Below, one piece after another: positions 21,626-54,727 of a DNA stretch of 64,000 nucleotides (position 1 is the stretch's first letter; every line of letters begins with the position of its first letter). The notes below the pieces were generated by a model. It had not been told where the DNA came from and made no database searches. It was given only the letters and a program-made list of their open reading frames with translations. The stretch comes from Alphaproteobacteria bacterium (GTDB lineage: Bacteria; Pseudomonadota; Alphaproteobacteria; Rhizobiales; JAJFHC01): the NCBI GenBank assembly GCA_021775805.1, contig JAJFHD010000096.1, positions 1 to 64,000 on the forward strand, given 5' to 3'. The translations under genes and the position numbers were made by a program.

Positions 21626-21702
21626 GGCCCCGTAGCTCAGCAGGATAGAGCATCAGATTCCTAATCTGAGGGTCGCAGGTTCGAATCCTGCCGGGGTCAC
21701 CA
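21626..21702 (+). tRNA. tRNA-Arg, anticodon CCT
   Basis: A full cloverleaf can be drawn: acceptor GGCCCCG/CGGGGTC (one G-U pair), D arm GCTC/GAGC, anticodon stem TCAGA/TCTGA with loop TTCCTAA, T arm GCAGG-TTCGAAT-CCTGC, discriminator A and an encoded CCA. The anticodon CCT reads AGG codons. It is followed 103 bases on by an M48 peptidase gene of different composition. Confidence 0.96.
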
Positions 21703-53219: not shown

Positions 53220-53245
53220 AAAAAGGGCCGCATTTCTGCGGCCCT
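53220..53245 (-). terminator. Intrinsic terminator for the 24-codon gene
   Basis: AGGGCCGCA-TTTC-TGCGGCCCT is a perfect 9-bp stem with a 4-nt loop. The A5 run at 53220-53224 becomes a U-tract on the minus strand, so it terminates leftward transcription. It lies 60 bases after the stop of the small gene at 53306-53380. On the plus strand it may still fold at the end of the preceding gene. Confidence 0.82.
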
Positions 53246-53305
53246 CCATGAGATAGTTTGTCGAGGTGCTTCAGTCGGATGATCCGGACCGAAGATGGGA
53301 GGCGG

Positions 53306-53380
53306 CTAGAACGAAGTTTCCTCCGTTAGACCTGCACAATATCCAAAGTCCTTCGACAGAACCGAAATCTCATGAGACAT
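53306..53380 (-). CDS. 24-aa small protein with an extreme Shine-Dalgarno sequence
   Basis: This ORF is too short for the track in its own right (it is the tail of a longer 105-aa reading there). It encodes 24 residues, MSHEISVLSK to LTEETSF, ending in TAG; one cysteine and one tyrosine lie side by side (GYCAG). The start codon is preceded by GAAAGGAGGTGATCCA, which is complementary to the last 16 or so bases of alphaproteobacterial 16S rRNA, with AGGAGG seven bases from the ATG. A terminator follows 60 bases downstream. Together these suggest a real, strongly translated gene. It resembles no peptide I know; a peptide precursor, a regulatory peptide or a leader are all possible. Confidence 0.6.
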   Translation of the reverse strand: MSHEISVLSKDFGYCAGLTEETSF

Positions 53381-53396
53381 TGGATCACCTCCTTTC
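53365..53396 (-). promoter_or_regulatory. Near-complete anti-Shine-Dalgarno complement
   Basis: The minus-strand text GAAAGGAGGTGATCCA at 53396-53381 lies directly before the ATG at 53380. Natural sites rarely pair with more than six to eight bases. No other similarity to the 16S gene was seen on either side, so it is not an rRNA fragment. Confidence 0.75.
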
Positions 53397-53548
53397 AATA
53401 GTTGAACACTTCCCGAGTATTGCCCTGTTCGCGGATTCGGGCAACCCCTTTTGCACCGGCCCTCCGGATTGCAATGTCTCCTTGAATCAGACCGCGTGCT
53501 CTGCTCATACTGAGCTGGACGCACAACAAGAAAACGGCTCACCACATC

Positions 53549-54727
53549 ATGACAGATCCCACACCGGCGCCCGCCCGCGGCTTCCCAACTTCGGAATACG
53601 AGAATCGCCTGACGCGCGCTCAAGGCATAATGGTCGATGAACAGATCGACGCGCTGGTGGTCTCGTCACCACACAACGTGCGCTATTTCTCCGGTTTCGC
53701 GTCCCAGTTCTGGGAAAGCCCGACCAGACCGTGGTTCGTCATCCTGCCGCGTGACGGAGCCCCGGTTGCCGTCGTGCCTGAAATAGGAGCCCCGGGGTTC
53801 GCCGGAACCTGGATCGATGACATCCGCACCTGGCCTGCGCCGCAACCCGACGACGATGGTGTGTCCCTGGTCACGGCGGCCCTTGAAGGCTTGCCCCGCC
53901 GTTTCGGGCGGGTCGGTTGGGAGATGGGGCGCGAGTCGGTCATCCGCATGCCGATTGCCGATTTTGACCGCATCAGAAACGGCATATCGGGTCTGGAGTT
54001 TGTCGACGGTTCGCCTGCCATCTGGGCCTTGCGCATGGTCAAGTCGGCAGCCGAAATCGACAAGGTCCGCTACATCTGCGGCGTTGCCAGCGACGGTTAT
54101 CAGGCTCTGCCGGAACGCCTCGCCCTCGGACAGTCCGAACATGACATCAGCCGTGAATTCCGCCTGGAACTCACCGAGCGCGGTGTCGATGCCATTCCGT
54201 TCATGGCGGTGTGCTCCGGCCACGCCGGTTACGACCAGATCATCGTCGGCCCGACCGACCGGGTTCTGGGAGACGGCGACGTGCTGTTCATCGACCTGGG
54301 AGCGCTCTACGACGGATACTCCTGCGACTTCGATCGCAATTTTGCCTTCGGGCATGCCGGCGACGATCTGAAAAGGGTACACGAAGCGGTCTGGCAGGCA
54401 ACCGAAGCCGGCATCGCGGCGGCCCGGCCCGGCATCACGTCGGAGGACCTTTTCAAAACCATGGCCCGAGTTCTTGAGGATGCCGGATCGACCGATCTCA
54501 ATGTCGGCCGGCTGGGCCATGGCCTCGGCATGCAGCTGACCGAACCGCCGTCAAACCGGCTTGGCGACCGGACTCCACTCGTCCCCGGCATGGTCATGAC
54601 TATCGAACCCGGCATGGCCTTCGGTGACGGCAAGATGCTTGTCCACGAGGAAAACGTGGTGATCACGGAAGATGGCTGCGAATTGCTGACCCGCCGCGCC
54701 TCGCGGGAAATGCCGGTTATCGGATAA
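53549..54727 (+). CDS. M24 family metallopeptidase (Xaa-Pro peptidase / creatinase fold)
   Basis: A 392-aa pita-bread-fold enzyme. The N-terminal creatinase-like domain includes IDALVVSSPHNVRYFSGFAS. The C-terminal catalytic domain holds the expected metal ligands: Asp in FIDLGALYDGYSCDFDRNFA, His in LGHGLGMQLTEPPS, and Glu in TIEPGMAF and VHEENVVIT. The family includes prolidases, ectoine hydrolase and DMSP lyase DddP; I cannot separate these by reading. It is divergent from the 24-codon gene. Confidence 0.9.
   Translation: MTDPTPAPARGFPTSEYENRLTRAQGIMVDEQIDALVVSSPHNVRYFSGFASQFWESPTRPWFVILPRDGAPVAVVPEIGAPGFAGTWIDDIRTWPAPQPDDDGVSLVTAALEGLPRRFGRVGWEMGRESVIRMPIADFDRIRNGISGLEFVDGSPAIWALRMVKSAAEIDKVRYICGVASDGYQALPERLALGQSEHDISREFRLELTERGVDAIPFMAVCSGHAGYDQIIVGPTDRVLGDGDVLFIDLGALYDGYSCDFDRNFAFGHAGDDLKRVHEAVWQATEAGIAAARPGITSEDLFKTMARVLEDAGSTDLNVGRLGHGLGMQLTEPPSNRLGDRTPLVPGMVMTIEPGMAFGDGKMLVHEENVVITEDGCELLTRRASREMPVIG

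Follow-up and report, generated by a model that had tools for sequence, protein, structure and literature searches.

What does a 24-codon open reading frame (ORF) do when it lies behind a Shine-Dalgarno (SD) sequence long enough to pair with nearly the whole 3' tail of 16S rRNA? The question is raised by a locus on the minus strand of the window, which is the whole 64,000-nt stretch of alphaproteobacterial DNA that was analysed. The extended SD, GAAAGGAGGTGATCCA (53396-53381), is directly 5' of an ATG at 53380, and the AGGAGG core ends 7 nt from this start. The ORF has 24 sense codons (MSHEISVLSKDFGYCAGLTEETSF) and a TAG stop codon at 53308-53306. An intrinsic terminator (53247-53220), which starts 59 nt past the stop codon, has an 11-bp stem, a 4-nt loop and a U run. 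The initial annotation had placed and described the SD, the ATG ORF, the AGGAGG spacing and the terminator correctly, and an M24 gene is indeed divergent from the ORF, as it had claimed (53549-54727, plus strand; Pfam Peptidase_M24, 2.3e-39, plus Creatinase_N). The sole other RNA gene found in the window is a tRNA-Arg (CCT) at 21626-21702 (plus strand). The features of the locus are listed here.

53416-53444, minus strand: putative promoter, read directly, with a -35 TTGCCC at 53444-53439, a 17-nt spacer and a -10 AATACT at 53421-53416
53397-53407, minus strand: 5' leader GTTCAACTATT, a conserved CAAC/CAAT element ahead of the SD
53381-53396, minus strand: extended Shine-Dalgarno GAAAGGAGGTGATCCA, complementary without mismatch to the 16S 3' tail
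53306-53380, minus strand: 24-codon ORF from ATG to TAG, with frame, start and stop kept and amino acids apparently unconstrained
53367-53374, minus strand: 5' arm of the P1 helix (CATGAGAT) in codons 3-5, with 8 perfect pairs to 53254-53247
53310-53327, minus strand: ORF-end hairpin AACGGAG-GAAA-CTTCGTT
53247-53254, minus strand: 3' arm of the P1 helix (ATCTCATG), adjoining the terminator
53220-53247, minus strand: intrinsic terminator, GGAGGGCCGCA-GAAA-TGCGGCCCTTT and a U run, with 11 pairs and a loop of 4
53225-53404, minus strand: whole RNA gene, homologue of CC2171 (RF01867), model positions 1-159 of 159, 52.7 bits

Across the family, the conserved CAAC is preceded by a recurring TTG-type -35 and A/T-rich -10, and transcription of the window copy would probably start at about 53409-53407. 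The window promoter was not scored as sigma-70 by a simple consensus scan.

A sensitive Rfam search aligned the window copy with all 159 positions of RF01867 (CC2171, "caulobacter sRNA") at 52.7 bits. The E-value was 1.1e-9 in the genome, 4.8e-8 in a pooled search and 1.5e-8 in a further run. Scores for the same model were 88.5 bits in Bosea, 86.1 in Brevundimonas, 75.5 in Falsiroseomonas, 41.7 in Bradyrhizobium and 39.8 in Rhodobacterales. The curated gathering cut-off of RF01867 is 75 bits; therefore, a standard Rfam search missed the window copy, and the whole window searched at gathering thresholds returned a tRNA only. Because its score is below 75 bits, the window element is, by this alignment, a divergent CC2171 homologue and not a curated member of RF01867. 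The initial annotation had called the locus an unknown peptide gene; the ORF and SD that it described are real, but it missed the known RNA family. Among 142 sampled genomes of the class, 31 match the model at E<=0.01 and 5 pass the cut-off. The Rfam cut-off hides most of the CC2171 family.

A search with the peptide in 60 relatives returned weak matches. The DNA around three of them has an SD, start, ORF and terminator arranged as in the window. The SD-start pattern GAAAGGAGGTGATCCAATGTCT, with up to 3 mismatches, is present in 225 of 398 genomes of the order and is nearly always found once per genome, and a control with the pattern written backwards gave near zero. In a phylum-wide sample the pattern matched 74 of 136 Alphaproteobacteria and 0 of 263 other Pseudomonadota, a split counted from the result table. 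All of the matches listed with a class or lower rank named are Alphaproteobacteria. The groups among the matches listed include Hyphomicrobiales, Rhodobacterales, Caulobacterales, Azospirillum, Roseomonas-like genera and a Sphingomonadales MAG.

Two genomes, G409 (C1:805113 and C1:2922049; L165) and G436 (L163), each have two RF01867-type matches. In G409 the SD-start pattern matches both copies, which suggests that they are paralogues. The Bradyrhizobium loci (L058, L064, L068 and others) have a very uniform 14-codon form, VSYLKRCHLAGIAR or similar, in an RNA that is nearly invariant. One of these (L058) scores about 42 bits against RF01867, and the Bradyrhizobium version may merit an Rfam model of its own.

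CC2171 reportedly comes from the original Caulobacter screen of Landt et al. in 2008. The literature that was searched, which did not include that founding screen, mentions CC2171 only in an Rfam table and in RNA-seq of Mesorhizobium, and no function was found. The copy of RF01867 in Mesorhizobium huakuii is a 215-nt transcript by RNA-seq (PMC5596092). Neither the kept ORF nor the 16S complement of CC2171 is described in the literature found.

The statistics below compare 187 copies, most of which were collected by a pattern containing the SD and start. Candidates with no stop codon within 214 nt or with more than 40 codons were dropped, so the statistics on the SD, the start and the openness of the frame are partly circular. 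The copies are also related by descent. A smaller set of 23 copies, recovered with the covariance model, is more independent.

Setting aside the terminal U, the extended SD is exactly complementary to the 16 nt at the 3' end of mature alphaproteobacterial 16S rRNA. The reference was plasmid-borne alphaproteobacterial rRNA and not the 16S tail of the window's own genome; a query ending in GGCTGGATCACCTCCTTTCTAAGGA had a 100% match to rRNA genes on replicons of Rhizobium, Phyllobacterium, Rhodobacter, Paracoccus and Azospirillum. The 3' ends of 16S were not found in most genomes searched, even complete ones, in which the rRNA is apparently masked or missing. Antisense matches to the CC2171-type sRNA could pass for 16S ends in such genomes. 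Across the family, GAAAGG is preceded by C or T and not by A, the base that would pair with the terminal U; therefore, the pairing with 16S ends one base short of that U. The base at -7 is A in 162 of the 187 copies. AAGGAGGTG does not vary among the 23 copies that the Rfam model recovered, 16 of which have the whole of GAAAGGAGGTGATCC.

The complement could be nothing more than a stray antisense copy of the 16S 3' end that has no function. Its 16 nt are identical to antisense 16S, but in hundreds of genomes the block comes with a matching start, ORF, helix and terminator, which makes a stray copy next to impossible. A 16S fragment or antisense 16S gene was also rejected, as Rfam places no rRNA in the window and the sequence past the 16 nt is unlike 16S. 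In the 6.6-Mb genome, AAAGGAGGTGATCCA with up to 1 mismatch occurs once. Hundreds of relatives have the SD block with NTG-TC after it, again as one copy per genome, and so it is not a chance match.

The complement could also have another role. Tight binding of the 16S tail could be the main job of the RNA, with the ORF merely clearing the ribosome afterwards. The extended duplex and the P1 helix near the start would then hold a docked 30S subunit or time its release, and the RNA would report or buffer free 30S. The complement spans almost the whole length of the 16S tail, and its conservation reaches past AGGAGG into GTGATCC. The SD-16S duplex is predicted at -29.6 kcal/mol, compared to -6.6 kcal/mol for a 6-nt SD, and the predicted cost of opening the SD and start is only about 5-6 kcal/mol in most lineages, although it is about 12 kcal/mol in the Rhodobacterales and Bradyrhizobium types. 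However, titration of ribosomes by a single-copy RNA needs a very high abundance, and an open ORF with a fixed stop exceeds the needs of a docking site. A 30S trap or sensor is therefore unlikely, although it is the foremost alternative.

The ORF itself is kept. The starts (ATG, GTG and TTG) and the stops (TAA, TAG and TGA) are mixed within lineages, and the 23 covariance-model copies agree, with 12 ATG, 9 GTG and 2 TTG starts. The length is set by lineage: 18 codons in all 31 copies of the Rhodobacterales type, 14 in all 10 of the Bradyrhizobium type and mostly 20-26 elsewhere. In three lineages, frame 0 is open for 18 codons or more in 60/61, 42/42 and 30/30 copies, compared to 33/61, 21/42 and 14/30 for frame +1 and 48/61, 3/42 and 14/30 for frame +2. 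The ORF bodies are open in 187 of 187 copies, where 88 are expected from shuffles, a comparison that is affected by the collection filter. In the SHC lineage, a conserved CCTGG is in frame in 39 of 41 copies despite 3-nt indels. In the SSE lineage, the ORF-end hairpin GGAGCARCCTCT encodes EQPLS, GAASL or RSNL according to its frame, and a stop codon still follows.

The amino acids do not follow the same pattern. The observed and expected synonymous fractions are 0.31 and 0.28 in the broader class of the window copy, 0.30 and 0.27 in the Rhodobacterales type, and 0.41 and 0.27 in the SHC lineage. The SHC excess vanishes when the copies are aligned on the conserved TW and only the nearest independent pairs are counted. 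The synonymous and non-synonymous counts from nearest pairs are 7/15 for the window type (22 codons with a single change), 33/86 for SSE, 11/36 and 17/40 for SHC and 11/35 for RHO. Purifying selection on the amino acids was not found, as these counts are no different from neutral in every lineage. The peptide has no match in Pfam or NCBIfam.

These results bear on the possibility that the locus is a small-protein gene, which would act through its 24-residue peptide, possibly a fast-evolving signal or precursor peptide. A strong ribosome binding site, a kept start and stop, and the frame-preserving indels of the SHC lineage are what such a gene would have. The neutral synonymous fraction in all lineages, the end of the ORF in different frames among relatives and the lack of a database match stand against it. 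In addition, the 14-, 18- and 24-residue peptides of the different lineages have no evident similarity past the first few residues. A functional peptide is thus improbable. Conservation of the peptide in relatives, which the initial annotation had proposed as a check, is absent and the substitutions are neutral, a result that disfavours a peptide function. Since the start, the stop and the open frame are kept while the amino acids drift neutrally, selection would be on the act of translation and not on its product. Evolution appears to keep the translating of this ORF rather than the peptide.

The RNA also has a kept long-range structure. In the P1 helix, codons 3-5 (CATGAGAT, 53374-53367) form 8 base pairs with ATCTCATG (53254-53247), which lies at the base of the terminator. 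The two arms change together among the copies, as CATTGTC/GACAATG, CACCG/CGGTG, ATGAG/CTCAT, GTGAG/CTCAC, GTGG/CCAC, GTGAA/TTCAC and GAAAG/CTTTC. In the SHC lineage, and in SSE taken together with the window lineage, a copy's own arms pair better than in all 5000 within-lineage permutations. In the Rhodobacterales lineage, the covariation of P1 is not significant by the permutation test. This long-range helix is also part of the Rfam consensus of RF01867. The position of the ORF-end hairpin is occupied in relatives by GGAG-CARC-CUCU or GGGG-CAG-CCCC.

The window copy has two predicted folds, one with the SD sequestered (-70.4 kcal/mol) and one with P1 closed and the SD mostly free (-69.9 kcal/mol), a difference within the error of the model. 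In the folding model, these near-equal energies fit a switch. An internal mimic of the anti-SD, with a match of at least 6 nt, is present at a frequency of 0.67 in the window type, 0.81 in Rhodobacterales and 1.00 in Bradyrhizobium, compared to 0.28, 0.27 and 0.18 in shuffles, an enrichment that is weak because the sequences are related. The mimic is not enriched in the two largest lineages. It was rejected as a universal part of the RNA since its enrichment is limited to the three lineages of the window, Rhodobacterales and Bradyrhizobium types. In some loci of the Rhodobacterales type (L041, L049, L038 and L126), the mimic CACCUCCU(U) is found in whole or in part just 5' of the 3' arm of P1. 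Its pairing with the SD in loci of this type would make a pseudoknot with P1.

A type I toxin-like mRNA would have similar parts. In this explanation, the long-range helix between the 5' and 3' ends silences the mRNA until it is processed, as in aapA and hok. The pairing of codons 3-5 with the base of the terminator and the alternative folds that sequester the SD both resemble the aapA3 model (PMC6733600). However, the window peptide is polar by inspection, has no hydrophobic stretch and is unconserved, and the class-wide, mostly single-copy presence of the element is unlike typical toxin loci. A toxin is therefore very improbable.

The genes around the element do not suggest a partner. The flanking genes differ between lineages and lie on either strand. 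The M24 gene of the window, and the other neighbours tested, are beside the element in no relative for which flanks were available. Since the M24 gene adjoins no other copy, the peptide/peptidase pair suggested by the initial annotation is not supported. With its own terminator and no constant neighbour, the element is, as far as its sequence context indicates, a stand-alone gene. In Rhodobacterales loci (e.g. L125, L132 and L115), the element is about 50-170 nt downstream of a co-oriented gene for a queuosine-precursor transporter. This neighbour was found at 20 sampled Rhodobacterales loci, and that of L125 matches Pfam Vut_1 and TIGR00697. Because of this position, the Rhodobacterales element might be partly derived from a 3'-UTR.

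A cis-acting leader peptide or attenuator for a downstream gene would also use a short ORF, alternative structures and a terminator. In the window, however, the gene past the terminator is convergent, and among lineages the downstream genes vary in kind and strand. The ORF also has no run of one amino acid. An attenuator has only a very slight chance of being correct, and it was rejected as there is no linked, co-oriented downstream gene or operon.

The explanation that we prefer, with a probability of roughly 0.6, is a stand-alone regulatory RNA of about 190 nt of the CC2171 type, in which ribosome engagement and translation, and not the peptide, would be the function. The initial annotation had offered very strong initiation or ribosome capture, and this is still the best lead, because the extended 16S complement is class-wide and the start and stop are kept. 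It was right that the affinity for the ribosome is unusual. The parts shared among copies are a complement to 13-16 nt of the 16S tail, an NTG start, a short ORF and stop, P1, a hairpin near the stop, and the terminator. In the proposed mechanism, the extended SD would be exposed and would receive a 30S subunit. P1 and the internal helices would then be unwound as the ribosome initiates and moves through the ORF, and without translation the RNA would refold. The translation state may in this way set the conformation of the RNA and the pairing segments that it offers, as expected of a translation-gated, trans-acting sRNA. A target role in trans would follow solely from the lack of a constant neighbour.

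A more specific proposal is tentative, and we regard it as possible rather than probable. The CC2171-type RNAs may be an alphaproteobacterial class of translation-gated RNAs, in which the nearly complete complement of the 16S tail captures a 30S subunit beside the long-range helix. Passage of the ribosome through the peptide-neutral ORF would switch the RNA between forms and thereby read out initiation capacity or ribosome supply. The CC2171 family is filed as an sRNA. What is new is an ORF, preceded by a conserved SD of great length, in which the start, frame and stop are kept and the peptide is not. It is now possible to test directly whether the translation event itself is the function of the family. 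If this is true, model organisms such as Caulobacter, Rhodobacter and rhizobia would use a new mode of riboregulation.

Several known RNAs have some of these parts. CC2171/RF01867 itself has, like the window copy, the 5' block CAAC..GAAAGGAGGUGAUCCA-RUG-UCUCAU, the long-range helix of the Rfam consensus, a terminator and usually a single copy. The arms of P1 are CAUGAGAU/AUCUCAUG in the window copy and CAUUGUC/GACAAUG in CC2171, and the hairpins also differ. The aapA3 type I toxin mRNA (PMC6733600) has a long-range helix that joins the start region to the 3' end, and it has alternative folds that sequester the SD. Unlike aapA3, the element has a polar and unconserved peptide, its P1 pairs with codons 3-5 and not with the SD, and it has no known antitoxin RNA. 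The rnTrpL/peTrpL of Sinorhizobium (PMC7298713, PMC10117765) is likewise a short structured RNA with a translated short ORF and a terminator. However, trpL is a leaderless RNA that lies upstream of trpE and acts as a Trp attenuator (PMC7298713, PMC10117765), whereas the element is not linked to an operon, its SD is extreme and its peptide is not conserved. The extended-SD mRNAs of Staphylococcus aureus (PMC13009471) resemble the element in that the SD-16S pairing is longer than canonical. In those mRNAs there are two extra pairs (PMC13009471), whereas in the element as many as 16 pairs run without a break, in a single dedicated small RNA.
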